This document shows positions 5,768-49,751 of a stretch of 64,000 bases of DNA, piece by piece. The notes below the pieces were generated by a model, which was not told the DNA's origin, made no database searches, and saw only the letters and a program-made list of their open reading frames with translations. Source of the DNA: Ehretia macrophylla. Lineage: Eukaryota > Streptophyta > Magnoliopsida > Boraginales > Ehretiaceae. Location: contig CM075783.1 in the NCBI GenBank assembly GCA_037974665.1, positions 43,857,818 through 43,921,817 of the forward strand, written 5' to 3'. The position numbers and the translations under genes were made by a program. The first letter of the stretch is position 1. Every line of letters starts with the position of its first letter.

Positions 5768-7439
5768 TGTGAAACCCCACTTTCTTGCTTATCTCGTTTT
5801 ACGTGCTATATCTCGTTTTTCGTGCATATGATCTGTTTATGTGCTATAGGACCTAGAAAGTTATAATTTTGATGTCAATACTTCTAATACGTGCTAAATG
5901 TGCATTCATGAAATTTTCATAAAAAACGGAGTCAGAAATTTTATCGTCGATTTTCAGTGAATAGTGTTTTCGAAACACGTCCGCTATAATTTTGATTGCC
6001 GTCGATTTCTAAATACTTGATAATTACGTGTTAGCGCTGTTGTAATGCCGAATTTTCGATTACATTGTTTGTGTGAAAATCCGGAAAATCCAGCCATGAC
6101 ATCTTAGGATTTTAGGGTTATCGGGCATGATTTGGAGGTGTTATGGTGGATTTCCGAGAGGGCTAATGTAGTAGGTTGAATGGGTGAGTGATAGGAACTG
6201 ATTTGGCAATGTTTGGATTAGTAGATTGTAAGTTATGAATTTTAGAAGTTTAGGTTGTCATTCTTTAATTTCTTGAACGATGCCTTTAGATGGTTGGGTA
6301 GTGTTCGAGTGATGAATGGTGAGTTGTTGTTGAGTAATTTAGAGTTTAATTATGTATATTATGCATGTCCGGTTAGATGGCCTACTTTGGCATCTAATTA
6401 CGTTGTTTGTTGTTTAATTTAATATTGATGTTATATTGATGTTATTGATTGATTATTATTGAGTTCGGGAATCGGGCACTTTTGTTGCTGATCTCCCAAT
6501 TGATTGATTGATGATTGATTGATTGATTGATGATTATGGAGTCTTGGTATGTGTGTGCCACCTCTCGGGCAGCGTCGGGCTGTCGGGTTGATAACGGCAT
6601 GACTGCCATAGGCTACCCCCAGCTCGCATGACGGAGGTGTCATGGAGGGAGGGGCTAGTGAGGTACCTCGGGTGCGTGAGTAATGGGGAGTTATAAGAAG
6701 AACGGTTGAGATCGTGATGGCGTTTGGAGCTACACCAAATAGAGTATCCTTTATTGATTGGTTATATAGTTATGTGATGATAGCATTATTTATGTTGTTG
6801 TGTGTTTACTTGCTCAAAGGACTAAATCCAAGGAGCGTAGTGAATACTGTCGAGATCTATCGGATCCTCACTGGGCTTATGTATATAAGCTCACTCTCTA
6901 TTATTGCATGTTTTCAGGTGTACTTTCACAAGATTACGGGTACGTGCCTCCTGAAGAGGAGAATGTGGAAAACGTGCCTTTCGTGGATGAGTCATATGTC
7001 CCTGAGTCTTATCCATGATTCTATGTTATTAAACGTCATGTATATTAGCTTAATGGACTTTTATATGCTTTACGGTTCTTAGTGTAATAGTTGTTGAAAA
7101 GATAATGATCCAAATGATGTTAACTTAGTGGCTTCCTTTTGTCTACGGTTAAGTTGTTAGATGGGTCTCAACTTATTTTTGAAATGTATAATGTAGTTGA
7201 GGTATTGTATGTTATGTTGGAACGGAGGCAGATAACGAAGACTGATTATTGTATACTACGGTTAGGTTGTATGTTGTTATGCTGTTAAGGAGTTGTTGTA
7301 TGTATGGTTATGGAATTTTGAATGTTTAATGTTATTAACGAGGTTGGTTTAGAACCTCGGTAATCTATTTACTGTCGTTACTGCCGAAATTCCGTTGCGT
7401 CCTGACTGATCGTAGGTGGGGTCGAGTTGGGGCGTGACA
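5768..7439 (+). repeat. Gypsy 5' LTR (1672 bp)
   Basis: Starts TGTGAAACCCC and ends GGGGCGTGACA, immediately before the primer site. It is shorter than the 3' LTR but over 99% identical where both exist. It contains runs of 'attgattg' near 6483-6530 and a TATA-bearing inverted repeat (6873-6892). Reading frames of up to 122 codons inside it are repeated in the other LTR and have no gene-like features. Confidence 0.96.
6871..6899 (+). promoter_or_regulatory. LTR TATA box within an inverted repeat
   Basis: The stem GGGCTTAT (6873-6880) pairs with ATAAGCTC (6885-6892) around a GTAT loop, with one G-T wobble. The second arm and loop contain TATATAA (6882-6888), so it is a likely core promoter. 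Flanks are CTCACTG before and CTCACTC after. The same block is at 14314-14333 in the 3' LTR. Function as a promoter is inferred from the TATA box only. Confidence 0.55.
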
Positions 7440-7458: not shown

Positions 7459-7710
7459 TCATGTTAGTTGTCAGCCGGGGGTATTCTCGGAATGTGGGTA
7501 ATGGTCTTAGCATGAAATATGTATGAAAGGAAAGAAAAATGAAATATGTATTGGTATGATTAATTGATTAAGTGATTATGTGATTTAAGTGCTTATGTGA
7601 TTATGTGATCAATTTGTTTATGTGTTTTATATGAGTTTGTTATTTATGTGTTAATAGTTGTTTATAACCTGTCTACGTGCTATAACTGTGCTAACTCTTT
7701 GATTAGTAGA

Positions 7711-10700
7711 ATGGCCGGTCGACCGAGAACCAGAGGTAGGCCTGAGATGGCTGATGAGACTCCGAGTAACGTGGCACCGGGCCGTGACGGGGGTGATGAC
7801 CGATTAGGAGCAGCTATGGAGCGGATTGCAGAGTTAGTGGCTAGTCAGGCACAGTTATTAGCAGGGCAGGCTGCCCAGAATCAGGCTATGCAGGCTCAGC
7901 TTCTGAATATTAAGGGTGGTAACCACGGGCGTGGTACCCTGAAGGAGTTTTTAGGATATCACCCACCGAGATTTCAGGGGGAGCCGGATGATAGGAAGGC
8001 GGAGGCATGGATTAGCAAGTTGGAGAAGATTTATGATCCACTTGGCTATACTGATGAGCAGAAAGTCTCTTTTGCCGTGTATTTGTTAGATGACGAGGCA
8101 GAGGAGTGGTGGCGCACGGTAAGGACTAGCTGGGCGGCACAGGGTATTCCTTATGTTTGGGGTACCTTTTTGATGGCTTTCCGAGCAAAGTATGTCCCGA
8201 GGATTTGCAGGGAACGGAGAGAGGCCGAGTTTCTAGCCTTGGTCCAGGGAGATGCTACAGTGGCTCAATATGAGGCCACATTTACTCGATTGTCCCGGTA
8301 TGCACCAGAGTATGTGGCAGACGAGGAGCGAAGGACTCGCAGGTTTATGTTGGGGTTGCGGCCCGAGATTCAGGATGTGATGGCTCTGAATCGATATGAT
8401 ATTTTCACTGAGGCTTTTGAGGCAGCTTCTAGGTTAGAGAAGAGGAAAGGGGATCAGATTGTCTCCAGTCAGCCTAGTAAGAGGCCGTATCAGCCACAGG
8501 GCCAGCAGGTTATATATAGGCCTCCAGTACAGCAGGTTGTCTACAGGCCACCAGCCCAGCAGGGTTCTTATAGGCCACAGGGTCAGCAGAGTTACTATCG
8601 GCCTCAGTTTCAGCAGAGGCCATATCCGGTTCAGACTCAGTATAGGCCAGCCCAGTCTCAGGGTCAGTATAGGCCTAGTGTGGTGAGACCTCAGCAGCAG
8701 GCTGTATCAGCTGCTTCATCAGCTTCTGGTTATTCTAGGGGCAGTGTTAGTGCCACATCATCGCAGTGTAATTACTACAAGCGCCTAGGGCATGTAGAGT
8801 CCGACTGCAGGGTAAAGGCAGGGACATGTTTGGGTTGTGGTAGAAGCGAGCATAGGGCGAAGGATTGCCCTAGATATGCGAGGACTGAGGGTCGGGCAGC
8901 GACTCAGGGTTACCAGGGTAGGCCTACGGGCAGTGTACCACAGCAGCAGCGGGTTCAGGCTCGGGCTTATGCAGTTGACTTAGAGGAGATGCCTGAGGAG
9001 ACTGCAGTTGTGGAAGGTAACTTCCTTATACTTGATCAACTTGTTAAAGTATTGATTGATTCTGGTGCTACGCATTCTTTCATTACTCCTGCTTGTGTGC
9101 AACGTGTTAAAATGCAACCTGAAAGATTGCCTTATGTGGTTGAGATTAGTACCTCTTTGACTGATAAGTATGTTACTGGCTTAGTATGTAAGGATTGTAT
9201 AATACATGTTAAGGGGCATAATTTTCCTTCGGACCTTATTTTATTTCCTATCCGGGGGTATGATGTTATTCTGGGTATGGATTGGCTTTCTAAGTATGAT
9301 GCCCAGTTGAACTGTAGAACCAAGGTAGTACAGTTTCGTTTGCCAGATCAGCCAGTAGTTGAGGTAGCGGGTAACCGGGGTGCTAAGACGAGTTTTGTTA
9401 TCTCAGCATCTAAAGCTGTTAAGTTGGTGAGTAAGGGGTGTTCGGGTTATCTAGCTTATTTGATCAACAAGCCATCTGATAAGCTACAGCTAGAGGAAGT
9501 CCCTATTATCCGGGAATATCCTAATGTATTTCCCGAGGAGTTGCCAGGATTGCCGCCAGAGAGGGATATAGAGTTTGTGATTAATCTTGTTCCCGGTACT
9601 CAACCTATTTCTAAATCGGCGTACCGGATGGCACCAGCTGAGTTGAAAGAGTTGAAGACTCAGTTACAGGAGTTGTTGGAGAAAGGATTTATTCAGCAGA
9701 GTTCTTCACCTTGGGGAGCTCCTGTTTTGTTCGTGAAAAAGAAGGATGGCACCTTGAGGTTATGTATAGATTATCGTGGGTTGAATCAGGTGACTATCAA
9801 GAATAAATATCCTTTGCCACTGATTGATGAGTTGTTTGATCAACTTCAGGGAGCCAAAGTCTATTCTAAATTTGATTTGAGGCAAGGGTATTATCAGCTT
9901 CGGATTCGCACGGAGGATGTTCCGAAGTCTGCCTTCAGGACTCGGTACGGGCATTATGAGTTTGTTGTCATGCCCTTTGGTTTGACTAATGCACCGGCAG
10001 CATTCATGGATCTTATGCATCGAGTCTTTCAGCCGTACTTGGACCAGTTCGTGGTGATTTTTATTGATGATATCTTGGTCTATTCTAAATCTGAATCGGA
10101 GCACGAGCAACATCTACGGCTTGTATTAGAGAAGTTGCAGGAGCATCAGTTGTTTGCCAAGTTCAGCAAATGTGAATTTTGGCTGCAACGGATTTCTTTT
10201 CTTGGCCATGTTATTACACAGAGTGGTATTTCTGTAGATCCCACTAAGATTGAATCGGTGATGTCTTGGAAGCGGCCAGAGAGTGTTACTGATGTCCGTA
10301 GCTTTCTTGGCTTGGCGGGTTATTACCGTAGGTTTGTCAAGGACTTCTCAAAGATTGCGGGGCCACTATCTAAGTTGACTCAGAAACGGACTATCTTTAA
10401 TTGGGACGAGAAGTGTGAGAGTGGATTTCAGGAGTTGAAAAAGAGGTTAACTACCGCTCCAGTACTTGCTCTACCAGAGGGGACCGATAATATGGTCATT
10501 TACAGTGATGCATCAAAGGAGGGCTTGGGATGTGTTCTTATGCAGGATGGCCGAGTTATTGCCTATGCTTCCAGGAAGTTGAAGCCTTATGAGGTGAATT
10601 ATCCGACTCATGATCTTGAGTTGGCAGCAGTTGTCTTCGCACTGAAAAAGTGGCGTCATTATCTGTGGGGCAGTAAGTTCGAGATTTTCACTGATCATAA

Positions 10701-12534
10701 GAGTCTAAAGTATTTATTCTCACAGAAGGAGTTGAATATGCGCCAGCGGAGGTGGATGGAGCTTCTTGGAGATTATAATTGTTCTATCAATTATCTGCCT
10801 GGAAAGGCAAATGTTGTGGCAGATGCTCTCAGCCGGAAGGCTAGTATTTCTTGTTTGGCTGTCAAGAAGTGGGAGGTTCTTGAGGAGTTTAGTTATTGGA
10901 GACCAGAGTTCACTCAGGTTGGGGTGATGTGTTCACATCTCCGTATTCAACCTTTATTGTTGTCTCAGATCAGGGAAGCTCAGCAGCTTGATGTTAACCT
11001 TCAGAAGATCAAGGATCAGATTTCGGATGATCAGTCTGACTTTAAAGTGCATGAGGATGGTATTCTTCGGTTTCGGAACAGGGTTTGTGTTCCCGATGAA
11101 CCGGGCTTGAGACGAGGTATTCTGGAGGAAGCTCATAATTCTAAATATACTATTCATCCCGGTGGAACCAAGATGTATCGGGATTTGAAACAGCATTACT
11201 GGTGGAACAACATGAAGAGGGAGGTTGCTCAGTTTGTGTCTAGATGTTTGACTTGTCAGAGGGTGAAAGCCGAGCATCAACGACCTGCAGGGTTGCTTCA
11301 GCCGTTGGCTATACCAGAGTGGAAATGGGAGCATATTACGATGGACTTCGTCACTGGGTTGCCTAGATCACCGAGGGGTAATGATGCAGTTTGGGTTGTC
11401 GTGGATCGTTTGACGAAGACAGCTCATTTTATCTCGATGAAGATGGGAGATGAGGTTACAAAGCTGACGGATCTCTATCTGGATCAGATTGTTAGACTTC
11501 ACGGGATTCCATCGAGTATTGTCTCTGATCGAGATCCTCGATTTACTTCTCGTTTGTGGGAGAAACTTCAGGAGACTTTGGGTACTCAGTTGAACTTCAG
11601 TACCGCGTATCATCCACAGACCGACGGTCAATCTGAGCGGACTATTCAGATTCTGGAAGATATGCTTAGGGCTTGTGTTCTGGACTTCGGGAAGAACTGG
11701 GAGAAACATCTACCACTTGCCGAGTTTGCCTATAACAATAGTTATCAAGCTACTATTAGGATGGCGCCTTTCGCAGCTCTTTACGGTCGTAAGTGCCGTT
11801 CACCTTTGTATTGGGACGAGGTAGAAGAGATGAAGACTGTTGATCCGACTATTATGCCAGAACTTCTTGAGAAGATTGAGAATGTTCAGTTGATCAGGCA
11901 GAGAATGCTTACAGCGCAGAGTAGATTCAAGAGTTATGCTGATAAGCGTCGTCGAGACTTGGAGTTTGCAGTTGGAGATCGAGTTTTCTTGAGATTGTCT
12001 CCTCGAAAGGGGTTTGTTCGTTATGGTAAAGGTGGTAAGCTGAGTCCGAGATTTGTTGGGCCGTTTGAGATTACTGGCAGGGTTGGTAAGTTGGCATATC
12101 GGTTGGCTTTACCGGAGAACTTCTCTAATGTCCACGATGTGTTTCACGTGTCTAATTTGCGGAAATATAATCCGGATCCTTCTCATATTCTTGAGCCAGA
12201 GCCGTTACAGCTTCGTGAGAATTTGACTTATGACGAGCGTCCGATTCGTATTCTAGATCAGATGGACCGAGAGTTGAGGTCGAAGAGGATTCCGATGGTT
12301 AAGGTGTTGTGGAAGCATCACGGCATTGAGGAAGCTACGTGGGAGAGACGAGATCAGATGCAGCAGCAATACCCAGATCTATTCCGTACATCAAGTAAGA
12401 ATTTCGAGGACGAAATTTCTATAAGGGGGGGAGAATGTGAAACCCCACTTTCTTGCTTATCTCGTTTTACGTGCTATACCTCGTTTTTCGTGCATATGAT
12501 CTGTTTATGTGCTATAGGACCTAGAAAGTTATAA
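7711..12534 (+). CDS. Ty3/gypsy Gag-Pol polyprotein
   Basis: One uninterrupted frame of 1607 codons from the ATG at 7711 ([13 protein letters not shown]). An upstream start at 7648 is in frame but less likely. Domains in order, with approximate residues: retrotransposon Gag 80-260; a Q/R/P-rich linker of repeated YRP units 260-335; CCHC zinc knuckle 372-388; aspartic protease with [10 protein letters not shown] near 447; reverse transcriptase 580-800 with FIDDILVYS near 783; RNase H with YSDAS near 930; integrase with an HHCC zinc region near 1145-1180 and the central catalytic domain 1205-1310; C-terminal chromodomain-like segment 1510-1565. The frame runs through the purine tract and about 33 codons into the 3' LTR before its stop. 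It encodes the particle and enzymes for the element's own copying. It is not a host gene. Confidence 0.95.
12423..12434 (+). promoter_or_regulatory. Polypurine tract
   Basis: AAGGGGGGGAGA ends one base before the 3' LTR. It is the plus-strand primer in this element class. Confidence 0.85.
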
Positions 12535-14880
12535 TTTTGATGTCAATACTTCTAATACGTGCTAAATGTGCATTCATGAAATTTTCATCAAAAACGGAGT
12601 CAGAAATTTTATCGTCGATTTTCAGTGAATAGTGTTTTCGAAACACGTCCGCTATAATTTTGAAACTGGTCTTTTTAACCCTTCTAGACCTAGTCCACGG
12701 ACTTTAATAGACCTGTGTTTGATGAAAATGGTTTTAAAATCGGCTTAAGAATTTATTAGGGTTTTTACACCGACTTTTGCGAAAATCGAGTTTTAAGCCG
12801 ACTCGGGTGAAATTATTGGATTGTAAAACTTCTTGTCACCTAAAAATAATCCACTTGAGATATCTTGGGGGTGGCATAATTATTTTTAACTTGGTGAGCA
12901 CTAAAATGCAATTAAAGTCATTAAAAACACAAAAATACCTATTAAAATTAACTTTGACTTTAATTAATTATTTGACCTTATAAGCTAATGTCCTCAACAC
13001 ACACTCACACAACACAAAAACACCATCACACACACACACAAGGCCGAGAGAAAAGAGGGAGAAAAGAGAAGAGAAAACTCAAGCTTTTCAATCCAATTTT
13101 TCAAAGAAAAACCTAGTTTTTGTCTGTAGAACTTCGCACCGACTTGGATTCTGCTTTTTGGGCACGCATAGCACGCATTTCTAGGCTTATATCGCATCTA
13201 AGGTGAGAGAAAAATTCTAGATCTCAAAATGTCATTTTTGTATTTTTGCGTATAAATGAAGATTGAACCGTTAGAATTGTAATCTGATGTTAGATTATTG
13301 CTCCTTGCATGCTAGGGATCATTATATACTAATACTACGAGTTTCTGTCGGATATAGCATAATTTTTATTTTCCGGGTATTTAATTTTGATTAAAATGTT
13401 CAAGTTGAATTAAATGAGTTGTGTTGATCGAAATCGATTGCCGTCGATTTTTAAATATTTGATAATTACGTGTTAGCGCTGTTGTAATGCCGATTTTTCG
13501 ATTACATTGTTTGTGTGAAAATCCGGAAAATCCAGCCATGACATCTTAGGATTTTAGGGTTATCGGGCATGATTTAGAGGTGTTATGGTGGATTTCCGAG
13601 AGGGCTAATGTAGTAGGTTGAATGGGTGAGTGATAGGAACTGATTTGGCAATGTTTGGATTAGTAGATTGTAAGTTATGAATTTTAGAAGTTTAGGTTGT
13701 CATTCTTTAATTTCTTGAACGATGCCTTAGATGGTTGGGTAGTGTTCGAGTGATGAATGGTGAGTTGTTGTTGAGTAATTTAGAGTTTAATTATGTATAT
13801 TATGCATGTCCGGTTAGATGGCCTACTTTGTCATCTAACTACGTTGTTTGTTGTTTAATTTAATATTGATGTTATATTGATGTTATTGATTGATTATTAT
13901 TGAGTTTGGGAATCGGGCACTTTTGTTGCTGATCTCCCAATTGATTGATTGATGATTGATTGATTGATTGATGATTATGGAGTCTTGGTATGTGTGTGCC
14001 ACCTCTCGGGCAGCGTCGGGCTGTCGGGTTGATAACGGCATGACTGCCATAGGCTACCCCCAGCTCGCATGACGGAGGTGTCATGGAGGGAGGGGCTAGT
14101 GAGGTACCTCGGGTGCGTGAGTAATGGGGAGTTATAAGAAGAACGGTTGAGATCGTGATGGCGTTTGGAGCTACACCAAATAGAGTATCCTTTATTGATT
14201 GGTTATATAGTTATGTGATGATAGCATTATTTATGTTGTTGTGTGTTTACTTGCTCAAAGGACTAAATCCAAGGAGCGTAGTGAATACTGTCGAGATCTA
14301 TCGGATCCTCACTGGGCTTATGTATATAAGCTCACTCTCTATTATTGCATGTTTTCAGGTGTACTTTCACAAGATTACGGGTACGTGCCTCCTGAAGAGG
14401 AGAATGTGGAAAACGTGCCTTTCGTGGATGAGTCATATGTCCCTGAGTCTTATCCATGATTCTATGTTGTTAAACGTCATGTATATTAGCTTAATGGACT
14501 TTTATATGCTTTACGGTTCTTAGTGTAATAGTTGTTGAAAAGATAATGATCCAAATGATGTTAACTTAGTGGCTTCCTTTTGTCTACGGTTAAGTTGTTA
14601 GATGGGTCTCAACTTATTTTTGAAATGTATAATGTAGTTGAGGTATTGTATGTTATGTTGGAACGGAGGCAGATAACGAAGACTGATTATTGTATACTAC
14701 GGTTAGGTTGTATGTTGTTATGCTGTTAAGGAGTTGTTGTATGTATGGTTATGGAATTTTGAATGTTTAATGTTATTAACGAGGTTGGTTTAGAATCTCG
14801 GTAATCTATTTACTGTCGTTACTGCCGAAATTCCATTGCGTCCTGACTGATCGTAGGTGGGGTCGAGTTGGGGCGTGACA
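12436..14880 (+). repeat. Gypsy 3' LTR (2445 bp)
   Basis: Full-length LTR of the young element. It carries the same inverted repeat with TATA at 14314-14333. Its length matches that of the related solo LTR at 47256-49751 (2496 bp), which suggests about 2.45 kb is the family's normal LTR length. A (CA)-rich patch lies near 13000-13040. Confidence 0.96.
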
Positions 14881-25808: not shown

Positions 25809-28496
25809 TGTAACACCCCGATCCCTCTCGAGACTGGGATTTCTATCAATCAATCTAATTACAACCCAATTCCAAACCCGGACAAAATTTTAGGGAAAGA
25901 CAGACGGAGTCTCCCCTGTTTCTAGGCAAAATGTAACACCTGTAATAGCATATAAGTGGACCAGCACCGTGTCCAACCATACAAACACCTCAAGGCCATC
26001 CGAGCCTTAGTTCTCAACAAGCGAACACAAGTAAGTATACATACATTTCCAGTTTAAAAGCTAACCTATATCTTCTCATCTTTGACAAGTACATTCAAGA
26101 TTGACAATTAAATCATATTAACCTATTGCATAAAATAGACTATCATACCATTCTAACTCTTTTCCTTTGGACATTACAAACAGGCATTGAAGTTAAACTA
26201 TACTATCTGAATACATAAACTAATTTTTCAAATCACTTCAATAACCTAGTAAAACTTAAATTACATTCCTTTTTAACATTAAATACAAGCAACACATGAA
26301 ACATACATCTTTGCATCTTTGACAACTCAAGCCACATAGCACTCAAGACAACTCTTCAAGCACGAACTTTCACGTAATCACGAACTTTCTAGCTAACAAG
26401 GCATTTCCCTGAAATGTGGTGGTAAGAGTGAGTATACTCAACACGTATACTCAGTGAGGGCGAGACAGATATCAAGGTGGAGAGAAAGAAAATCGTGCAA
26501 TGCAAATAAGGCAGTTAAGCAATATAACTGACAAGTAAGCATTCAGTATAGACAATCAATACAATAAACACTTAATAAAAGCATTAACACAACCATGCAA
26601 AGCTATACCACACTCTGAAGGCTATGGTTCACTCAAACGAGCAATGTACCGATCATGATTTCGATGACTTTAACGATGACGCGCTGGCTCACCCACCTTA
26701 TAACTTCCATTAGAGTACTCCAGATATACTCTGTCAATTCTACGACCCAAAACTCCCTGGGCGGCAACCCAAGCGAGAACGGGAATAGGACACGGAGCTA
26801 GAGCAACCAACCCTGGCAGCCCGAGACTACCCAGAGAGGCCCATCACTCACGCGCCTGACACAATGCAATGCAATGCGAAGAATATAACGATAATCGAGC
26901 AAGACACTGAAGTGCAGGTTAGTAATAACATGCGATACAATAAGCATTTACAATTAATAAAATAACAAGAACAACACTAACAAGAATTATCAACAATTGA
27001 TATACAATTCAATCATAATCAAGTATAACGAGCATAATAATCCACAATAAGCATTATATAAGCAAGTATTATAAAAATCAACTAAAACACTAAATGACCC
27101 CAACTTTCTCAATGCTACTACTTCCAAACGAGCTACGAGTTTTGGAAATCGACTTCACCACTCCTCCTAGAACACCATAAGGCACGTCTGAAGACCACGA
27201 AACCCTACTTTACCCTAGAATTCCCGCAAAGCCCCGATTTCCCCCTTTGCTTGTTTGAACTACAGCTACCTCAACCGATCACCCAACCAATGTCATAACT
27301 GCACCAAAAGTGGTTCCATGGCATACTACGACAATGCCTTCAAGCAAATCGAGAAATTTCCAAACTCGACCGAAATGACCCCAACGTATACCGAGCCATT
27401 TTTCTCCGATTTTCTATTACACAATCCTATTAAACCATACATTTAGGTATTCTAGCATATCTAGCACCTTCCTACATCAACAAAATGCAAAACGAAGCAA
27501 CTTTAACGTAACGAGGGTTTACTATTCATAATTTACTATTCAATTCGCATTTTAAATTACAATCGCTATATTTAACCGTAGAAAATGCTAAAAATCTACA
27601 AATACATGTTCTACAATTATCAAGGAACATTCTTTAAGCATCAAAACGAATAAAATAACAATCTACGGCTAAAACCCAAAAATTAAAGTTTATATACAAC
27701 ATTTTCAAATGCGCAAATAAGGATGAAACCCTCACCTTAGACGCTACTAGATGCTAGGAAAACCACGTTGGAAGCTTCGAAAACAACCCCGTGCAAGCTC
27801 TCGCGAAGATTTGAAGTTTTGAAAATTGAAATCTTTTTTTTGCCTCTCTTGAAGTTTCGGCCCTTTGCTTCTTATTTTTTCAGCTTTTGTGTTTATTTTT
27901 ATTTTATTAGCTTATAAAAGATGACAACTAAGTCAAACTAGTCAAGGCTTGGTCAAACTAATTAAAAATTGGTCAAATAAGCTTATTTCTTGCATTTTAA
28001 AGTTAAAACAACTAGCACAAATTATAATTCTAGTCAACAACAACTAAAACACTAAAATTAAAACATTAAATACTAGTTTTCACTATTTGCTGAGGACTAG
28101 AAATCATTTCCTAACTATCGCTCTCGATATGCTATGCACAAAATGAAGAAGAACGAATAAGACGTGAATATTATGGAATAAGAAAAATATAATTTCTGAA
28201 AAGCAACATAGTTCAAAATTTACTCTGGCTCGGAGCTACTTTTGATTTAATTGAAAACCGAGCATTAAGGTGCAAGAAAATAAAATCGAGTAACATAAAA
28301 ATGAAAAGTAGTTGATACTCCATTAAAATTATTAACTCAAGTATTATTTAATTACTTCTAAAAGAAATATGAAAATAATGCTACAAATGAATGTTTAACT
28401 AAAAATAAACACAAAATTCAATGCTAACATTTAAGATGACACTTAATTAAATGCAATTAAATGCCATTAAATGCATGCCGGGTTCGGGGTATCACA
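25809..28496 (-). mobile_element. Solo Ty3/gypsy LTR (2688 bp)
   Basis: On the minus strand it begins TGTGATACCCCGAACCC and ends GGGATCGGGGTGTTACA. The perfect 5-bp duplication GAGAG (25804-25808 and 28497-28501) shows it is a complete solo LTR left by recombination between the two LTRs of one element. It has the inverted repeat GAGTATAC/GTATACTC at 26430-26452. It is from the same family as 1-783. No coding content. Confidence 0.92.
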
Positions 28497-32184: not shown

Positions 32185-34472
32185 TGTAATGCCCCGATCC
32201 CTCACAAGACCGGAGGCCCCGATTCCATTCCCGAGGTCACAAAAAAAATGAGGGGACACGGACAGAGTCTCCCCTATTTGTAGGACTATTTGATACCTGC
32301 ACATAGGCTATATAACCACAAAACAACTCCCTCACAATTTCTATCCTCCGATATCAACATATACAACAAACTCCTCAAGGCCATCTGAGCATTGGAACTC
32401 AACAAACTCAACAAAAGTACACAAGCAAGCATGCGATCTTATAGGCTATTGAAATACTGGGTTATAAAATCAGTTATCATACCACTCTAATGTTCTCTTA
32501 TTCAATCTATTTAAAGATTAAATCTTTCAACCATTCTCTATCTCATTTCACACGAGCAAACAAGCTACTTAGACAATAAGGTAAATCTTTAAAGTTATTA
32601 CATGTCAGTTTGGAGATTTAAATACAATCCTCTACGATGCAACATAAATACATATAGGGCTTAAACACAAATATATTACAAGAAAAATTCTTCATTTCCT
32701 TTACATAGATTACATATAACATAACTAGCTAAAACAACTTCATTCAAGGAGTCTTCCGGCCTTCTCTTTCTCAATCTCCGAACTTGAAATGGTTAGAAAG
32801 AGGGTTGAGCACACAACAATCATATGCACAGTGAGGGACGGAACATATAATCGGGGAGTTTTCAAAAAACATTTTCGTGGGAATAAAACCAATTATCATA
32901 TTTACGAAACTATAACTAATAACAAGCAATAAAGAATAAGCAAGGTAATGCAATATCCACATAAACTCAATTAACAAGGCGAGACCAATGTAAAATTAAC
33001 AATAAAGCGTCACATAACAAACGAAAGAGAATAACCACATCAAGAAAAGTATATGATATAGCTACAAGATCACAATCCAAGGTAACTCTCCAAGGAACAA
33101 AGGCCCAAGAAAGAGTTACACGATGGATGATCACAAGACGAGTAAGGCAATTAAGACAATGAATTCAAGTATCACTTAGTCAAGCTTGACTCAATCGGGA
33201 GATAAACTCCGGTACATTCTGGCGATACCCTCCGGCATATTCTGGAATTATATTTCGACACTTCACACATTCAGGAGGCATACCTCGGTACATTCAGGTG
33301 ATTTACACCGCACGCCGATTAATCACATAACTGAGATAACATACAAACAAGAATCATCACAACTTAGCATATAATCAAGTAACCTAGTATACAAGCCCCA
33401 ACCAACATCACACAACAACTGCTTAACGAACATTAGGACCATACGATTGAGATATAGGCATTAACCATGAAATAACCACAAGTGCACAAAGGAATCATTA
33501 TCATGCTTTTCACGAAAACATACCAAAAGCTCACATAATCCTTAAAGTTGCAAGTAAACACATAATAACCAATTACAAGCCCATACAAGCTCTACAACAT
33601 ACACTTCCCACATTTTTTCCTTTGTTATCCTAAGCCATTTAACTCTAAAACAAAGACCAAGGTTCCCGATTCTCAAACGAGATATTCTATTCTTCTAATT
33701 ATACATTATGGCACACTTAGGGCACACGAAACCACCCGATAACCCACATTAGCCACAAAAGCCCTGTTTTCCCCTTTATGCGTTATAATTACAAGTACTC
33801 TATTCGATGTTTAATTAAGTGTCACAACCGCACATTTAGCACCTCCTCATCCTAAGAACACTAAATATATCACTCAAATCCACCCGAATTTACATTACAC
33901 CTGAAACCGCTTTATAAACTAAGCCAATTATGCATTTTCACTCAAATTTTGGGCAATCTAAGTTCATAAAATGGTAATTCTATGTTATTTAGCATCTCTA
34001 GTACATAAAGGAGGCATGAAATCAATCTAATTAGCAATTTATAGAAAAACCCTATAATTTTACTATTCATCATCTTCCTCAACATGCATTTCTCCATTTT
34101 CAACCATAACAACTTCAAATAACTATAAAAGATTGTTCTTTAATCATAAATTCGAGCAGTTGAAGCATAGACAAGTATTTATAGGCAATATAACACTAAA
34201 GCTTAAAATTAAAGTTAAGACATATATGAGGAAAATGCATATAAATGCCTAAATCCCTCACCTAAATGCTTGTAGATTCTAGATTAGGACTTGGAGAAGC
34301 TTAAACCACTTGTAGATTGCTTGGAGGATCATACAATAGCAAGAACTAGAGCAATTTTTGAAGAAAGTTACTATTCACGTAGGTCTCATTTTGGCTGATA
34401 TTTTAGGTCTTTTGGCTGAATTTTTATGGTATTTTTGGCTTATATATGGTATATATTAATATGTGGGCTCAA
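32185..34472 (-). repeat. Gypsy 3' LTR, partial
   Basis: Begins TGTAATGCCCCGATCC (plus strand) and follows 44316 onward closely up to about 34472, where similarity stops. The hairpin GTAACTCTC...AGAGTTAC is at 33082-33119. The inverted repeat seen in other LTRs is weak here (32807-32829). Confidence 0.85.
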
Positions 34473-36811: not shown

Positions 36812-39800
36812 TGTAATGCCCCGATCCCTCACTAGACCCGAGGCTCTAATAACCAAGCTATTCTCAACCCCATTTCCAAACTCGGTCACAAAATTTAGGA
36901 AAAACGGACAGAGTCTCCCCTGTACCGTGGACATTCTGAAAACCTGTAAGCATTCAAATAAAACCACAAGGAAAAAGGAACAACATTTCTAATTGAAATC
37001 CTAACTTCAAGGCCATCCAAGCCTTAAGCAACACAAGACAATATAAATACATACAAGCATGCAACAATAGTCTTAAAATCTTTGTCTTCATTCGCTTATC
37101 ATACCATTCTATGTTAGCAATTAAAGCCAACCATACATCCGTTCATTCACACCCAAGCATGCAACATAGCTAGAAGCAGAAGCATAAGTTATTACATGCC
37201 ACAATTTCATAACAATTACAACATCCACTTAGCTTTCAAAACATGCAACTACCCAAATATATACATAAGCCCTTAAGCTCCAAAATAGAACATAAAGTAG
37301 AACAAACAAGGTCTTCCACAGTTTAGCAGGCAATTACTCCAATCTCAAGTAATAGCACATAGCAATCAAAGCAACTCCTTCAACTGCACCACCTGAAACA
37401 TGTTTAGCAAGGTATGAGCAATCACAATTTCCCAGTGAGGGATAAGGTCTACCGAGGACGTGCAATGCAGCAGTTAGTACAAATAAAGCAATTAAACAAT
37501 TAAAATGCGCTTAAGCAATAAGATACCACACATCAAGGAAAGTCAAACAACCACTGAAACATAATCAAAGGTAACTCTCCAAGGAACAAAGGCCTAAGCG
37601 AGAGTTACTCAAAAGGATACACATCATGTAACTCTCCAAGGAACAAAGGCCCAAGCGAGAGTTACACAATAAGGAATACCCGAAGATCTTGAACTCGTAC
37701 CACGAACCACGAACCACGAACCTCGAACCACGAATAGAAATCCTGAAGAATAATGTCACTGATAACAATAAGCCGGCATCCCCTTATAACTCCATGTTTG
37801 GTGTACTCCGAATGTACCTCGAAATCCTACGACCCAACTCTCCCTAGGCGGTATCCCAAGCGAGAGAGGGACTGGGCAACCATGGTAGCCGAGGTATACC
37901 GGCAACCCCGATGCCGCCCGGCTTCTATGACACTACCATGCCCGAATGGTTGCGCAACCACGATGCAATGCACTCAAAATGATAACAATAAGATAAATCA
38001 ATAAATACATGATCGAGGGACAACAAAGTAGGTTGCCCTCACACACAATATATAGACAATAAGTGCACATAATCTAAGTACAAGTAAATAAACTATTATG
38101 CACATAAGGATGAAGTCTCCCTCACCTCTACCAAGCTCCAAAATGCAAGATTGGCTTCAAATTACCCTCAATCACCTTGAACATAAAGTTAAACATTGTT
38201 TCAATTACTCTTTAACTACAACATTCATTAATTGTCCAACTAGGTTAGCTAACTCATAGTTTACTTAATTAACATACAACCAAGTAATCATTCAAGTAAT
38301 ATAATATACAAACAATATAACTAACAAACAATAAAATCATGATATAAGCATGTTCCACAATCATTTAAAAGAGCATTTTAAGCATAGATAACCATATTTA
38401 ATTCCATAATAGTACTATCAATTTATAAAGCCAATAATCCATACTTATTCTCATTATAATTAACTCAATATAACACTCAAGGAAAACACTTAGAACTATG
38501 GCAATACAATTACTATAAACAATGATTATTTTAGAATCTTCAATTTAAGAAAACAATTATGCAAATTACAAAGGGGCATATTCAAGATTCACATAAAACA
38601 ATACCAAAAGCTCCACAACATCTTGAAACCACATTTAAGCTCATTAGGAGTCATGCCAAGGTCTTAGAAGCATGAGACATTCGAATTCCTGCTTTAACCC
38701 CTTTGCAATATAACCCGTCTTCCTTCCAAACACATGTCATTGTTCTAGATTAACAAGTAGCCTATACCATGCTCCTAGCTAACCCCGTAGGCACCCTTAG
38801 GACACTCAAAGTCACGCAATTACCCGCATTTAGTCCGAAAGCCCCAAATTCCCTCTTTTGGCTTTGTACTACACGTACCTCACTCAAGGCTCAAACGGGA
38901 GCTAGCAAAGCATAATTAGGGTCTACTTAGCCTAGGGACATCAAAAGTGAAGGCCAATTTTACCCGGATTCGCGATAAGCCCGAAACCTCTTTCTAAAAG
39001 CCGGCTATTTCCTTCTTTCGTTAGGTTATGAGCAATTAAATCCTACGGGGCATTTACACTACTTTCATTAACACCTAGAGCATCTATTAGAACCATTGAT
39101 TCAAGCTATAAAGTCCGATTCCACAAAACCCTAAAATTCCCATCACTATTCATTCCCTACGATCAACAAGCGATTCCAACCGTTTAAACTACGAAACAAT
39201 AGCTTAAATTAGGTATCTACTACTTATATATAACATATATAAGCATATTTGAGCATTGCAATAGCATTTAAGAGCAAAACAAGAAATTCAAGAAAGTTGT
39301 CACATTTAAAAAATGCAAAAATAGCATGCAAATCTCTCACCTATTGCGCGTAGGAGCTCCTAAGAGGCTAGTAAACACCCTAAACCACTTGCACCTAGCT
39401 TGGCTTGGCTTGGATTGAAGATTTTTTGAGCAAAAATCTCTCCTTTTCCTCCTATGTTAATTTTCGGATTTGCTACTGTGTTTTCAGCTTTTCCTTTTTT
39501 TTTTGTGTTTTGCTAACTTATGAGCTTAGTGTGAGGTGTTGAGCATATATAAGTCTATATGTTTTATTTTAGTGTGAGTATGTTGGTCAAAATATGAATT
39601 AAGCTAGTTTAAAGTAAGTCCTAAGTACAATTTAAATGATAGCCAATCAAAACACATAGTTTTGTTACGTAATACTATTTATTAGTTTCAACAAATCATT
39701 TTCTAAACGGATACTCCTATGGCTTTTAGCTCAAATGCATATTTTTATCATTTCTAAAACAATTAATATGATTTAAGAAAAATGCTAATTCAAATTAATT

Positions 39801-41024: not shown

Positions 41025-44000
41025 ATAACGCCCTGATCCCTCACGAGACCGGAGGCTCTAATAACCAAGCTATTCTCAACCCCATTTCCAAACCCGGTCA
41101 CAAAATTTAGGAAAAACGAACTGAGTCTCCCCTGTACCGTGCACATTCTGAAAACCTGTAAGTATTCAAATAAAACCACAAGGAAAAAGGATCAACATTT
41201 CTAATTGAATTCCCAACTTCAAGGCCATTTGAGCCTTAAGCAACACAAGACAATATAAATACATACAAGCATGCAACAGTAGTCTTAAAATCTTTGTTTT
41301 CATTCGCTTATCATACCATTCTATGTTAGCCATTAAACATTCTTAGAAATTAAAGCCAACCATACATCCGTTCATTCACACCCAAGCATGCAACATAGCT
41401 AGAAGCAGAAGCATAAGTTATTACATGCCACAATTCCATAACACTTACTACATCCACTTAGCTTTCAAACTTGCAACTACCCAAATATATACATAATCCC
41501 TTAGGCTCCAAAATAGAACATAAAGTAGAACAAGCAAGGTCGTCAACAGTTTAGCAGGGAATCGCTCCAATCTCAAGTAATAGCACATAGCAATCAAGTC
41601 AACTTATCCAACTGCACCACCTGAAACATGTTTAGTGAGGTATGAGCAATCACAATTGCCTAGTGAGGGATAAGGTCTACCGGGGACGTGCAATGCAGCA
41701 GTTAGTACAAATAAAGCAATTAAACAATTAATATGCGCTTAAGCAATAAGATACCACACATCAAGGAAAGTTAAACAACCACGAAAACACAATCAAAGGT
41801 AACTCTCCAAGGAACAAAGGCCCAAACGAGAGTTACTCAAAAGGATACACATCATGTAACTCTCCAAGGAATAAAGGCCCAAGCGAGAGTTATACAATAA
41901 GGAATACCAGAAGATCTTGAACTCGTACCACCAACCACGAACCTCGAACCACGAACAGAAATCCCGAAGAATAATGTTACTGATAACGATAAGCCGACAT
42001 CCCCTTATAACTCCAGGTTGGGTGTACTCCTGATGTACCCCGAAATCCTACGACCCAACTCTCCCTGGGCAGCATCCCAAGCGAGAGAGGGACTGGGCAA
42101 CCATGGTAGCCGAGGTATACTGGCAAGCCCGATGCCGCCCGGCTTCCACGACGCTACCATGCCCAAATGGTTGCGCAACCATGATACAATGTACTCAAAA
42201 TGATAACAATAAGATAAACCAATAAATAGATGATCGAGGAACAACAAAGTAGGTTGCCATCACACACAATATATAGACAATAAGTGCACAAAATCTAAGT
42301 ACAAGTAAATAACTATTATGCACATAAGGATGATGTCTCCCTCACCTATACCATGCTCCAAAATGCAAGATTGGCTTCATATCACCCTCAATCACCTTGA
42401 ACCTCAAGTTAAACATTGTTTCAATTACTCTTTAACTACAACATTCATTAATTATCCAACTAGGTTAGCTAACTCATAGTTTACTTAATTAACATACAAC
42501 CAAGTAATCATTCAAGTAATATAATATACAAACAATATAACTAACAAGCGATAAAATCATGATATAAGCATGTTCCACAATCATTTAAAAGAGCATTTTA
42601 AGCATAGATAACCATGTTCAATTCCATAACAGTACTATCAATTTATAAAACCATTAATCCATACTTATTCTCATTATAATTAACTCAATATAACACTCAA
42701 GGAAAACACTTAGAACTATGGCAATATAATTACTATAAACAAGAATTCACTTAGAATCTTCAATTTAAGAAAGCAATTATACAAATTACAAAAGGGCATA
42801 TTCAGGATTTACATAAAACTATACCAAAAGCTCCAAAACACCTTGAAACCACATTTAAGCACACAAGGAGTCATGCCATGGTCTTAGAAGCGTGAGACAT
42901 TCGGATTCCTACTTTAACCCCTTTGCAATACAACCCGTTTTTCTTCCAAACTCATGTCATTGTTCTAGATTAGCAACTGGCCTATACCATGCTCCTAGTT
43001 AACCCCTTAGGCACCCTTAGGACATTCAAAGTCACGCAATTACTCGCATTTAGCCCAAAAGCCCCAAATTCCCTCTTTTGGATTTGTACTACACGTACCT
43101 CACTCAAGGCTCAAACGGGAGCTAGCAAAGCATAATTAGGGTCTACTTAGCCTAGGGACATCAAAAGTGGAGGCCAATTTTACCCGGATTCACGATAACC
43201 CCGAAACCCCTTTCTAAAAGTCGGCTATTTCCTTCTTTCGTTAGGTTATGAGCAATTAAACCCTACGGGGCCTTTACACTACTTTCATTAACATCTAGAG
43301 CACCTATTAGAACCATTGATTCAAGCTATAAGTCCGATTTCACAAAAATCTAAAATTCCCGTCACTATTCATGCCCTATGATCAACAAGTGATTCCAACC
43401 GTTTAAACTACGAAACAATAGCATAAATTAGGTCTCTACTACTTATATTTAACATAAATAAGCATATTTGAGGATTGCAATAACATTTTAGAGCAAAACA
43501 AGAAATTCAAGAAAGTTGTCACATTTAAAAAATGCAAAAATAGCATACAAATCTCTCACCTATTGCCCGTAGGAGCTCCTAGGAGGCTAGTAAACACCCT
43601 CAACCACTTGCACCTAGCTTGGCTTGGCTTGGATTGAATATTTTTTGAGCAAAAATCTCTCATTCTCCTCATATGTTAATTTTCGGATTTGCTACAGTAT
43701 TTTCAGCTTTTCCTTTCTTTTTTTGTGTTTTGCTAACTTATGAGCTTAGTGTGAGGTGTTGAGCATATATAAGTCTATATGTTTTATTTTAGTGTGAGTA
43801 TGTTGGTCAAAATATTAATTAAGCTAGTTTAAAGTGAGTCCTAAGTGCAATTTAAATGATAGCTAATCAAAACACATAGTTTTGTCATGTAATACTATTC
43901 ATTAGTTTTAACAAATCATTTTCTAAACGGATGCTCCTATTGCTTTTAGCTCAAATGCACATTTTTCTCATTCCTAAAACAATTAACATGATTTAAGAAA

Positions 44001-44315: not shown

Positions 44316-46995
44316 TGTAACACCCCGATCCGTCATGAGATTGGAGGCCCCGATTCCATTTCCGAGGTCACAAAAAAAGAGGGGAAATGCACAGAGTCTC
44401 CCCTATTTGTATGACTATCTGATACCTGCACACAAGCTACATAACCACAAAACAACTCCCTCACAATTCTCGTCCTCCGATATCAACACATATAACAAAC
44501 TCCTCAAGGTCATCCGAGCCTTGGAACTCAACAAACTCAACAAAAGTAGACAAGCAAGCATGCGATCTTATAGGCTATTGAAATACTGGGTTATAAAATC
44601 AGTTATCATACCACTCTAATGTTCTTTATTCAATCTATTTAAAGATTAAATCTTTCAACCATTCTCTATCTCATTTCACACAAGCAAACAAGCTACTTAG
44701 ACAATAGGGTAAATCTTTAAAGTTATTACATGCCAGTTGGGAGATTTAAATACAATCCTCTACAATGCAACATAAATACGTACAGGGCTTAACCGGACAC
44801 AAATATATTACAAGACAAATTCTTCATTTGCTTTACGTAGATTACATATAACACAACTAGCTAAAACAACTTCATTCAAGGAGTCTTCCGGCCTTCTCTT
44901 TCTCAATCTCCGAACCTGAAATGGTTAGAAAGAAGGTTGAGCACACAACATTCGTATGCCCAGTGAGGGGGGGAACATATAATCAGGGAGTTTTCAAAAA
45001 ACATTTTTGTGCAATGCATATAAAGCATAAAATCAATTAACAAGTTAAAGCACTCATTCGAGGGAATAAAATCAATTATCATATTTGGGGAACTATAACT
45101 AATAACAAGCAATAAAGAATAAGCAAGGTAATGCAATATCCACATAAACTCAATTAACAAGGTGAGACTAATGTACAATTAACAATTAAGCGTCACATAA
45201 CAAAGGAAAGAGAATAACCACATCAAGATAAGTATATGATATAGCTACAAGATCACAATCCAAGGTAACTTTCCAAGGAAGAAAGGCCCAAGCAAGAGTT
45301 ACACGATGGATGATCACAAGATGAGTAAGGCAATTAAGACAATTAATTCAAGTATCACTTAGTCAAGCTTGACTTAATCAGGAGATAAACTCCGGTACAT
45401 TTTGGCGATAGCCTCCGGCATATTCAGAAATTATATTCTGACACTTCGTACATTTAGGAGGTATACCCTCGTACATTTAGGTGATTTACACCGCACGCCG
45501 ATTAATCACATGTCTGAGATAACATACAAACAGGAATCATCACAACTTAGCATATAATCAAGTAACCTAGTATACAAGCCCTAACCAACATCACACAACA
45601 ACCACTTAACGAACATTAGAACTATACGATTGAGATATAGGCATTAAACATGAAATAACCATAAGTGCACAAAGGAATCATTATCATGTTTTTCACGAAA
45701 ACATACCGAAAGCTCACATAATTCTTAAAGTTGCAAGTAAACACATAATAACCAATTACAAGCCCATACAAGCTCTACAACATACAATTCCCACATTTTC
45801 CCCTTTGTTATCCTAAGCCATTTAACTCTAAAACAAAGACCAAGGTTCCCGATTCTCAAACGAGCTATTATATTCTTCTAATTATACATTATGGCACACT
45901 TAGGGCACACGAAACCACCCGATAGCCCACATTAGCCACAAAAGCCCTGTTTTCCCCTTTATGCGTTATAACTATAAGTACTCTATTCGATGTTTAATTA
46001 AGCATCATAACTGTACATTTAGCACCTTCTCACCCTAAGAACACTAAATATATCACTCAAATTCACCCTGATTTACATTACACCCGAAACCCCTTTATAA
46101 ACTAAGCCAATTATGTATTTTCACTCAAATTTCGGGCAATCCAAGTTCATAAAATGGTAATTCTACATTATTTAGCATCTCTAGTACTTAAAGGAGGCAT
46201 AAAATAAATCTAATTTGCAATTTATTGCAAAACCCTATAATTTTACTATTCATCTTCTTCAACATGCATTTCTCCATTTTCAACCATAACAACTTCAAAT
46301 AACTATAAAAGAGTGTTCTTTAATCATAAATAAGAGGAATTGAAGCATAGACAAGTATTTATAGGCAATATAACACTAAAGCTTAAAATTAAAGTTAAGA
46401 CATATATGTGAAAAATGCATATAAATGCCTAAATCCCTCACCTAAATGCTTGTAGATGCTAGATTAGGACTTGGAGAAGCTTAAACCACTTGTAGATTGC
46501 TTGGAGGATCATACAATAGCAAGAACTAGAGCAATTTTTTAAGAAAGTTACTATTCCCATAGGTCTCATTTTGGCTGATTTTTTAGGGCTTTTGGCTGAA
46601 TTTTTATGGTGTTTTTGGCTTATATATGGTATATATTAATATGTGGGCTAATTTGGGGTAAAAAATAATGCAAGTCCAAGTCAAATTTTAGCTTTAAAAT
46701 GCAATTAAAGTTAACTAGTTTAGTAACTAAATGTTCCCACTATTTTACTATTAATACGATACCTAAACTTATTTTCTAAACGCACACTCCTAACATTGAA
46801 TACACAAAACAACACTTTTTCTCATTCCTCATACAAGTCATATAACAGGGGAAAAATGCAATTTCAGAAAAATAAAGCAGTCGATTTCACTATAAATAGT
46901 GACTTTTACTAAAAAGTGAATAAATGCACATTTTAATGCACAAATAAGATATGCAACAATTAATTATGAATATAAGAAAAGTCTCAGGTGCCACA
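44316..46995 (-). repeat. Outer gypsy 5' LTR (2680 bp)
   Basis: Plus strand TGTAACACCCC ... GTGCCACA, followed by GTTAT. On its sense strand the inverted repeat GGGCATAC/GTGTGCTC (44939-44961) pairs fully if G-T is allowed. Confidence 0.92.
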
Positions 46996-47255: not shown

Positions 47256-49751
47256 TGTGAGACCCCATATTTTGCTTTATCTTGTTTTGCGTACTTTACC
47301 TCGTTTTGCGTGAATTGACCTGTTTATGTGATATATGACTTAGAATGTGCTAAATATGTGATTAATACACCTAATACATGCTAAGTGTGCATTCATGAAA
47401 TTTTCATAAAAAACGGAATCAGAAATTTTATCACCGGTTTTGGTGAATAGTATTTTTGAACACATGTCCGCTAAAATTTTTACCGGTGTATTTTAAAAAT
47501 TTTAAAACGTAGTCCTCGAGTATTAATAGACCCGTGTTTGATTAAAACAGATTTGGAATTGGTTTTGAAATTTTAAAGATTTTTACACTTTCTTTTGCAA
47601 GAAAACGAGTTTTAAGCCGATTCAGGTGAAACTATTTTAATGCAACCTTCTTTGTTACCTAAAATATAATGTCTAGAATTTATTTAAGTGCTAATTTAAT
47701 AGTTGAGCAAGAAATACTCAAGAAATGAATTAAAGGACTAAATAACTAACTTTGACTTTGCAATTTTTTTAATTGACCAAGCTTTTATTTGCATAATATC
47801 ATCAACACACACTAAACACAACACAAAACATACTCCTCAACACACACAAAGGGCCGAGAGTTTCAAGGGAGAAAAAGAGAAAGGATTTTCAAGGTTTTCA
47901 AAGCAAATTTTCATAGAAAAACCTAGTTTTTATCCGTAGCACTTCATGCCGAGTTGGATTCCGCTTGTTGGGCATGCATTGCACGCATATCTAGGCTTAT
48001 ATCAAATCAAAGGTGAGAAAAATTATAAATCTCAAAACTCATTTTTTATGTTTTTGCTTATAACTACATTTTGAACCGTTAGAATGTTAATTTGAAGTTA
48101 TATTATTGATCAGTGTGTGCTAGGGATCGTTTATGTGTATTACTACAAGATTTGATCCATTGTAGCAAAATTATTTATTTTCGGATATTTAAAGTTGATA
48201 GATTGGCTATTTGAGGATTATCTTGATGTGTTGTGGTTGGAATCGATTGCCGTCGATTTCTAAAAGTTTGTTAATTATGTGGTAACGCCGTTATAATTCC
48301 AAATTTTTGATTGCGATGTTTGGGTGAAAATCCAAAAATTTCAGCCTAGGCGCATTGAGGTTTTAGGGCTGTTGGGTCTGATTTTGATATGTCTTGGTTG
48401 GTTTCCGAGAGGGATAATGTAGTTGATTGAATGGGTGAGTGTTTGAAACTGATTTGGAGTTGTTTGGATTAGTAGAATGTAAGATATGATTATTTGAAGT
48501 TTAGGTTGTCTTTCTTTAAATTGTTGATTAGAGCCTTTAGATGATTGGGTGGTGTTTGAGTGATTGAATAGTGAGTTGTTGATGGTTAGATTAGGGTTAG
48601 ATTACGTGTCTTATGCATGTTAAGTTGGATGACCTACTTTGTCATCTAACTTAGTTATTTGTTTAATTGATTACTTGATGTTATATTGATGTTATATTGA
48701 TGTTATATTGATGATTATTGATATTACATTGATGGAAATGGATGATTATTGATGATTATTGATTGATGATTGATGAATCGGGAAATAGGCAGTTCTACTA
48801 GACTGTCCTCCTGTGAATGATGTTTATTATTATTGTTGAGTCTTGGTGTGTGTGTGCCACCTCTCGGGCAGCGTCGGGCTGTCGGGTTGATAATGGTATG
48901 ACTACCAGAGACTACCTTTAGCTCACATGACGGAGGTGTCATGGAGGGAAAGGCTAGTGAGGTACATCGGGTACGTGAGTAATGGGGAGTTATAAGAAGA
49001 ATGGTTGAGATCGTGATGGCGTGTGGAGCTACACCAAATTGAGTATCCTTTATTGATTGGTCATTATAGTTATGTGTTTATATTATATTGATGTTTATTT
49101 GTGTGTTTACTTGCTCAAAGGATCATTTCCAAGGAGTTTAGTAAATACTGTAAGAGATCTATCAGATTCTCACTGAGCTTGTTTATATAAGCTCACTCTC
49201 TTTTATTACATGCATACAGGTATCCTTTCGCAAGATTTCGGGTACGTGCCTCCAGAAGCGGATAATGTGCCATATGTGGATGAGTCCTATGTGCCAGAGT
49301 CTTGTCCTTGATGCTTGAGATGTTGTATACTCTATTATCATGTATATTAAACTAGTTGTCTTTTATTTTTCCTTGTAATTTATGATGTATAAGTTGTAGT
49401 AAAGATAATGAACTAAATGATGCTCACTTAGTAGTCTTTCTTTTGTTAAGATCTAGGTTGCTAAGTTGGTTTATAATATATTTTGATATGTATGTTAAAG
49501 TTAAGGTATTATGTTGGAACGGAGGCATATAACTATGAATGGATCGTCTAAGAGTGATTGTTGTATAATATGGTTATGTTGTATGTTGTTAATAGTTTTA
49601 AGGAATTGATTGTTGTTTGGTTGAGGAGTTTGATTGTATAATGTTCTGAGAGGTTGGTTTAGAGCCTCGGTGTCTTGATTACTATCGTTATACTGCCGAA
49701 ATTCCGTTGCGTCCTGACTGATCGTAGGTGGGATCGAGTTGGGGCGTGACA
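47256..49751 (+). mobile_element. Solo Ty3/gypsy LTR (2496 bp)
   Basis: TGTGAGACCCC ... GGGGCGTGACA with a perfect duplication CTGGT (47251-47255 and 49752-49756). It is related to, but clearly diverged from, the LTRs of the whole element at 5768-14880, and has the same layout including 'gtgccacctctcgggcagcg' near 48853. No internal sequence is present. Confidence 0.93.
49171..49200 (+). promoter_or_regulatory. LTR TATA box within an inverted repeat
   Basis: GAGCTT (49175-49180) and AAGCTC (49189-49194) flank a loop with TATATAA. CTCACT lies before and CTCACTC after, as at 6871-6899. Confidence 0.5.

Follow-up and report, generated by a model that had tools for sequence, protein, structure and literature searches.

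Many Ty3/gypsy families carry in their long terminal repeats (LTRs) a short hairpin kept by matched base changes, a conclusion supported by compensatory changes, by GU intermediates between C-G and T-A, and by shuffle and slide controls, all within this genome. The result upholds the proposal, made in a first-pass annotation of the window (the whole 64 kb stretch analysed here, from an apparently plant host genome searched as 1.58 Gb in 20 contigs), that selection acts on a base-paired structure across families. Our preferred reading, held tentatively at a little under an even chance, is that this would be a hairpin acting in cis, as RNA, where an intron-like LTR module of many Ty3/gypsy families has its 3′ end, tuning use of the acceptor.

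Ten stem-loops had been claimed in the window, and all ten lie at the coordinates and on the strands given for them, flanked by CTC[A/G]CT and CTCA (Table 1). The expression CTC[AG]CT[GA].{10,24}CTCA, run over both strands of the 64 kb, returns exactly those ten places and none besides. Families entered our analysis solely through the motif, which bears on the annotation's wording that the hairpin occurs in all gypsy families here. The copies fold unequally: in 33-nt windows, 7/10 fall within the lowest 5.6% of their own surroundings, the exceptions being those at 37416 (57%), 41644 (29%) and 51305 (15%), and two of the stretches as originally delimited fold poorly (0 kcal/mol for 37416-37433 and -4.4 kcal/mol for 41644-41661). 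Mismatches include a T.T at pair 2 in the copy at 32807-32829, while an A.C mismatch comes first in those at 51305-51321 and 41644-41661. Rfam matches at gathering score in the 64 kb window number zero.

The family A element carries the hairpin about 1.9 kb into a 2.4 kb LTR, and its Pfam domains stand in gypsy order; a chromodomain match (this element only) has an E value of 0.0045 and a score of 17.3 bits, under the cut-off of 25.1. Its 5′ LTR is about 770 nt shorter than the 3′ LTR, the absent part corresponding to 12664-13435, and the remainder is 99% identical. The window also holds LTR pairs of families B, C and D, one related A2 LTR and one E LTR. The family C element (36811-44140, minus strand) has 3.1 kb LTRs with just 1.1 kb between them and lies inside a family B element, flanked by the LTRs of the latter. 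Domain searches of window ORFs also returned a copia-type gag fragment (3215-3844), an F-box/LRR-like ORF (22776-23531) and an ORF with a transposase-associated domain (59280-60287). Directly ahead of the polypurine tract there is another small inverted repeat, which reads AATTTCG/CGAAATT in the family A element and AATTGCG/CGCAATT elsewhere, families C and D included, again a paired change. It occurs in the window at 12395-12435 (plus strand), at 53222 (minus strand) and in family C, as well as at L071:704, at L072:837 and on the minus strand of L021, L025 and L026; at four places ending a pol-like frame it is preceded by GTAAG, and at the remaining places by GAAG.

Table 1. Positions within the 64 kb window of the hairpin copies, the parts of the family A element, and the putative intron and downstream frame features
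Feature	Position	Strand	Details	Basis
Hairpin, family A, 5′ LTR copy	6873..6892	+	arms GGGCTTAT/ATAAGCTC	sequence and folding
Hairpin, family A, 3′ LTR copy	14314..14333	+		sequence and folding
Hairpin, family A2	49175..49194	+	arms GAGCTTGT/ATAAGCTC	sequence and folding
Hairpin, family E	26430..26452	-	arms GAGTATAC/GTATACTC	sequence and folding
Hairpin, family B copy 2	44939..44961	-		sequence and folding
Hairpin, family B copy 1	32807..32829	-	outer stem weak; TTTCAAG in place of the TTTCAGG of other copies	
Hairpin, family C copy 2	41644..41661	-		sequence and folding
Hairpin, family C copy 1	37416..37433	-	mismatch; no fold alone	sequence and folding
Hairpin, family D copy 2	54336..54352	-	without CAGG downstream	
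Hairpin, family D copy 1	51305..51321	-	A.C at foot; without CAGG downstream	
Family A 5′ LTR	5768..7439	+		borders from repeats and TG...CA
Family A 3′ LTR	12436..14880	+		end inferred from repeat offset
Family A gag-pol ORF (stop to stop)	7609..12534	+	gag, protease, RT, RNase H, integrase	Pfam search in three pieces
Putative LTR intron, family A 5′ LTR	6744..6917	+	174 nt, GTATCCTTT...CAG, hairpin inside	
Putative LTR intron, family A 3′ LTR	14185..14358	+		
Putative LTR intron, family A2	49043..49219	+		
GTATCCTTT word, family C copy 2	41840..41848	-	181 nt before motif	
GTATCCTTT word, family C copy 1	37612..37620	-		
Exon-like reading frame, family A	6918..7018	+	...VLSQDYGYVPPEEENVENVPFVDESYVPESYP, then stop (TGA)	
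Exon-like reading frame, family A2	49220..49311	+	...ILSQDFGYVPPEADNVPYVDESYVPESCP, then stop	
Short acidic frame, family A 3′ LTR	14359-14459	+		

Genome-wide, the pattern CCCTCRCTGN{11,21}CTCACYCT matches 17,744 places (8902+8842) and its reversed control one; CCTCRCTN{36,64}TTTCAGG matches 18,832 (9446+9386), against 108+91 when reversed, and GTATCCTTN{85,114}CCTCRCTG matches 18,121 (9078+9043), against 13+24. The three patterns overlap one another, and the individual places inspected were the first 100 matches listed for each. Among the matches listed for CCTCRCTN{36,64}TTTCAGG, 9/100 were judged by eye not to be this motif, mostly a repeat of the form CCTCGCT.TGCCC...TTTCAGG. An apparently unrelated dispersed repeat, CCTCGCTRTGCCC...TTTTTGGAGCCC...TTTCAGG, fits the loose pattern at many places (e.g., G000:C1:2866582). 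The hairpin with its flanking words can serve as a marker by which LTRs that are hard to align in other ways are located and aligned.

Matched changes in the stem were assessed in 132 distinct hairpin cores, hand-sorted into 18 groups and drawn from the pattern matches listed, the window and fetched loci; omitted were off-motif rows judged by eye and at least two listed variants (C1:74309513 and C1:81991377). With each group represented by a single head and identical arms merged, 13 distinct arm pairs remained, in which 73/78 positions are standard pairs compared with 59.3 ± 2.9 when the right arms are shuffled (0/20,000 shuffles reach 73). The inner three pairs alone give 36/39 standard pairs against 22.3 shuffled. 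Both partners change at pair 4 (C-G, T-A and the intermediate T.G), pair 5 (A-T, T-A) and pair 6 (T-A, A-T, C-G). Among group C cores with near-identical downstream sequence, the seventh pair varies between C-G, T.G and T-A, and from D to J the fourth pair passes through a similar series of C-G, T.G and T-A. Group G runs counter to this, its pairs 3 and 4 being A.C and C.A. In a 24-row alignment, whose rows were hand-chosen from related families so that the shuffle figures are not probabilities, 94.1% of cells are paired, cells changed on both sides number 19 against 7.4 shuffled, and the covariation score is 0.399 against 0.203. When the right arm is slid by one to three columns, paired cells in this alignment drop to 29–58%. 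Two of five measures on the 24 rows are no better than shuffles: the number of pairs in which both sides change is 3 (2.6 shuffled), and that of further pair types is 6 (5.5 shuffled). Within this genome, the larger set proposed as a check on the original claim shows covariation beyond both shuffled and slid controls, and the claim stands.

The stem also keeps a fixed place. Windows of 30 nt, slid in 5-nt steps along 23 hand-chosen representatives aligned on CTC(A/G)CT, have a mean minimum free energy (MFE) of -8.4 at the hairpin offset, compared with a mean of -2.6 (sd 0.98, lowest -4.9) over 92 other offsets between -330 and +190. A fold at -4 or better is found in 91% of representatives at the hairpin offset; at the other offsets this share averages 23% and peaks at 61%. 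At this resolution, none of the 92 offsets holds equally good stems in the same LTRs, the other check suggested with the first annotation.

The hairpin occupies a fixed place in a longer module, which runs from the donor word RTATCCTTT (in most copies) through a T-rich stretch, CTC(A/G)CT, a hairpin mostly of 6–8 pairs, CTCA and a pyrimidine-rich stretch to CAG/G. The 3′ arm of the hairpin runs straight into the branch-point-like CTCA, usually 20–25 nt before CAG/G. Over 40 copies the branch-like A lies 18–34 nt from the AG, with some picks inside the stem partly giving the largest distances, and 29/40 picks fall in the CTCA right after the stem. The word on the other side of the hairpin, CTC(A/G)CT, was rejected as a branch point because its A is replaced by G in several families. 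No CAGG is found downstream in B1, D1 and D2.

We searched for the donor word in 45 copies that had been picked by the hairpin motif, independently of that word. RTATCCTTT, the U12-type 5′ splice word, occurs exactly 60–350 nt upstream in 27/45 copies against 0.21 shuffled, in agreement with what is expected of U12 donors, and with one mismatch in 11/45 against 5.07; no word within one mismatch is present in 7/45 (L033, L038, L055, L068, B2, D1 and E). Two of the 27 exact words are the A-form donor ATATCCTTT, the other accepted U12 form, and the putative introns that they open close with AG rather than AC. Among upstream 9-mers GTATCCTTT is the most frequent (12/24 family representatives), followed by TGCATTGCA (9/24), and, since it is not alone in being conserved there, it could be a promoter element. 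The recurring word TGCATTGCAC, to which the 9/24 count for TGCATTGCA belongs, lies upstream of the hairpin in the LTRs of B, C, D, E and several fetched loci.

Base composition steps at both ends of the putative intron. Across the RTATCCTTT word, T-G rises within one 12–15 nt bin from -0.04 to +0.39 (for T alone, from 0.23 to 0.45 once the word itself is removed), and at CAG/G it falls from +0.27 to -0.13, a step also present in the 19/40 copies that have no acidic frame downstream. The interior, 152–340 nt long in 25 copies, has T 0.41 and G 0.17, compared with T of 0.27 and 0.28 and G of about 0.32 on its two sides; interior T exceeds upstream T in 24/25 copies and downstream T in 25/25. A1b, C1, D1 and B1 were excluded from the composition and 9-mer counts as second copies.

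On the acceptor side, the branch site of the U12 class is TTCCTTRAY. In some of the families YTRAY precedes the AG by 10–13 nt, and at distances of 9–16 nt it is found in 11/27 representatives, against 2.7 expected (0/2000 shuffles as high), and is absent in 16/27. In two 15-nt bins leading up to CAG, C+T reaches 0.73 and 0.60, a pyrimidine tract where U12 introns are expected to have no distinct one. U12 introns with GTATCCTTT donors have been described, with an optimal branch-to-AG distance of 11–13 nt (PMC7367187, PMC3584512); a pyrimidine tract is atypical of U12 introns, which make up <0.5% of introns in any genome (PMC3584512). A DNA search for spliced retrocopies of family A, which scored just 22 candidates, found none, and a genome search for the family A 21-mer junction gave one 2-mismatch match, the same as the control. 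Retrotransposed genomic RNA should be unspliced anyway.

The frame downstream of CAG/G is under selection in part of the families. It is open for 14–33 codons to a stop and D/E-rich in 21/40 copies (e.g., GEAELEQVPEENVLVDEPLE, GEAEVNPQLIEEEEVYVDQNP and GVLSQDYGYVPPEEENVENVPFVDESYVPESYP), by a cut-off set by us at ≥14 residues and ≥18% D+E, with the first G codon taking the G of AG. Six hand-chosen groups give a pooled pN/pS of 0.36. For family A the in-frame value is 0.23, versus 2.8 and 1.2 in the shifted frames, and a 9-nt indel there keeps the frame; F has 0.39 (shifted 0.69 and 1.48) and C 0.33 (shifted 1.73 and 1.15). Weak cases are D (0.52 versus 0.58 and 1.05) and MI (0.53 versus 0.80 and 0.63), and group Q goes the opposite way, with 0.63 in frame and lower values of 0.31 and 0.35 shifted. 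Copies from families with same-strand neighbours about 3.5–4.8 kb apart (E, J and part of C) keep the hairpin and have no acidic frame. Such families with short LTR spacing are presumably non-autonomous, and since they keep the hairpin without the frame, the hairpin's job cannot be solely to join that peptide.

Among the candidates tried, the stretch before GTATCC and pol GTAAGAATT, we found no upstream exon for the acidic frame. The stretch upstream of GTATCC was rejected as coding, since stops interrupt most copies in most phases and indel lengths are not multiples of three; as an exception, phase 1 is open for 28–37 codons in L032, L046 and L048. GTAAGAATT occurs in phase 1 at the pol 3′ ends of families A, C and D and of one window element, and seemed to fit the phase of the acidic frame. 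It was rejected as a general donor because the junction codon would be TGA with the exon starts of L043, L046 and L047 (C and part of D), whose LTRs belong to the same subfamilies as the tested pol ends, not to the same elements; for family A and L045 the junction would give no stop.

Taken together, the donor word, the T-rich interior, the branch-like A, CAG/G, the composition steps and the selected downstream frame are what lead us to favour a hairpin at the 3′ end of an intron-like module. Pairing in the stem would hold the branch-site region, making the acceptor weak or switchable. Part of the transcripts would then be spliced and the rest would stay full length as genomic RNA, with the module spliced by U12 or U2 factors and the hairpin modulating the outcome. 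Points that tell against such an intron are the lack of a U12 branch word in 16/27 representatives, the pyrimidine tract, the copies without a donor word and the lack of a family A spliced retrocopy. A bolder version, which we regard as somewhat doubtful, would see here a gypsy lineage with a U12-type LTR intron in more than ten thousand copies, a covarying branch-site hairpin as its switch and an LTR-encoded acidic peptide as its downstream exon.

The structure likely acts as RNA rather than as a cruciform; we lean toward RNA because the arms vary between families and G.T is tolerated at pair 2. The first-pass annotation had held that the leftover imperfect pairs are G-T on the sense strand, and this is true of pair 2, which is A-T or G.T in 130/132 cores and never A.C, but not of pairs 1, 3, 4 and 5, where A.C or C.A occurs in 23, 8, 7 and 3 of the 132 cores, respectively. 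Over pairs 2–6 of these cores, G.T outnumbers A.C by 120 to 18 (41 to 18 without pair 2), an excess that is not a clean test since three further patterns from which cores were drawn fix letters at pairs 2 and 4; the stem is left free only by CCTCRCTN{36,64}TTTCAGG, and CCCTCRCTGN{11,21}CTCACYCT fixes the outer arms. The arms are also inverted repeats in DNA, and the hairpin might work in double-stranded form, as a cruciform or a palindromic host-protein site. Single copies of family E with equal local context would agree with this, having at pair 3 G.T at 70 places and A.C at 71, with no RNA-strand bias there; we take this near-equality to mean that single copies drift without strand bias and that the paired changes belong to lineages. 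We nevertheless consider a DNA structure very improbable: the arms change between families and so offer no fixed binding sequence, stems of 6–8 pairs are short for cruciforms, and G.T at pair 2 in 8/24 alignment rows, with A.C in none, would weaken a cruciform but not an RNA.

The first-pass annotation placed the structure near the transcription start; its surroundings look instead like the close of an intron. A serious alternative, and the chief rival of the intron, is nevertheless that the RNA has its 5′ end at the hairpin. The CTC(A/G)CT purine would be where transcription starts, with the stem-loop as the first structure of the R region, like the retroviral R-region stem-loop TAR of HIV, acting in transcription, translation, packaging or first strand transfer. 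Families differ at the fourth base of the left word, some having A and some G (the patterns fixed A/G, and other letters are invisible to them), either of which the plant YR start rule would allow; the 15-nt bin around this word is C-rich (0.42), and the hairpin is kept in the short-spacing families without an acidic frame, as a replication signal would be. The available text of PMC3601003, which discusses conserved LTR motifs and R-region stem-loops and in which the word stem ‘splic’ is absent, links stem-loops to conservation in long retroviral R regions; that of PMC2832683 contains no start-site data. We nonetheless judge a 5′-end hairpin rather unlikely, as it leaves unexplained the donor word, the composition steps at GTATCC and CAG/G and the frame beginning at CAG/G, and no recurring TATA-like word is seen about 30 nt upstream (by eye, uncounted). 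It is also conceivable, if improbable, that the hairpin is a packaging, dimerisation or polyadenylation signal and that its intron-like surroundings are unrelated leftovers of an ancestral LTR. This would suit the hairpin being the most constant element, with the donor word and the acidic frame each absent from part of the copies, but not its short and narrow distance before CAGG where CAGG exists, as measured from the branch-like A in the 40 copies.

The putative LTR intron resembles several known systems in part. With U12-type GT-AG introns (PMC7367187, PMC3584512) it shares exact GTATCCTTT/ATATCCTTT words in 27/45 copies, YTRAY in 11/27, the CAG/G end and a sharp-bordered T-rich interior, whereas the module is mostly without the branch word, has a pyrimidine tract and a 3′-end hairpin, lies in an LTR and has more than ten thousand matches. 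Plant LTR elements are described as generally without introns, the exceptions being Ogre and EVADE, plus a spliced gag message of BARE1 (PMC12786077; for Ogre also PMC6317226). Partial splicing that spares full-length RNA for replication would be a strategy common to these elements and our module, but their introns lie in the internal region and the module lies within the LTR. LTR sequence also encodes protein in CRM and some Reina chromoviruses, where the gag-pol ORF extends into the 3′ LTR (PMC3059260, PMC3605345); that ORF is continuous with pol, unlike the short acidic frame here, which starts from a splice-acceptor-like site about 1.9 kb into the family A LTR. Retroviral R-region stem-loops are likewise small LTR stem-loops kept by pairing (PMC3601003), while the surroundings here look intronic. 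In the open-licence literature, mostly titles and the beginnings of abstracts, we recognised no description of this hairpin or of a U12 intron in an LTR.

The way in which LTR elements apportion transcripts to messenger and genome roles is an open question. A selected, structured and intron-like LTR module would, if true, be such a switch in repeats that are very abundant here, and could seed thousands of splice acceptors into the genome.
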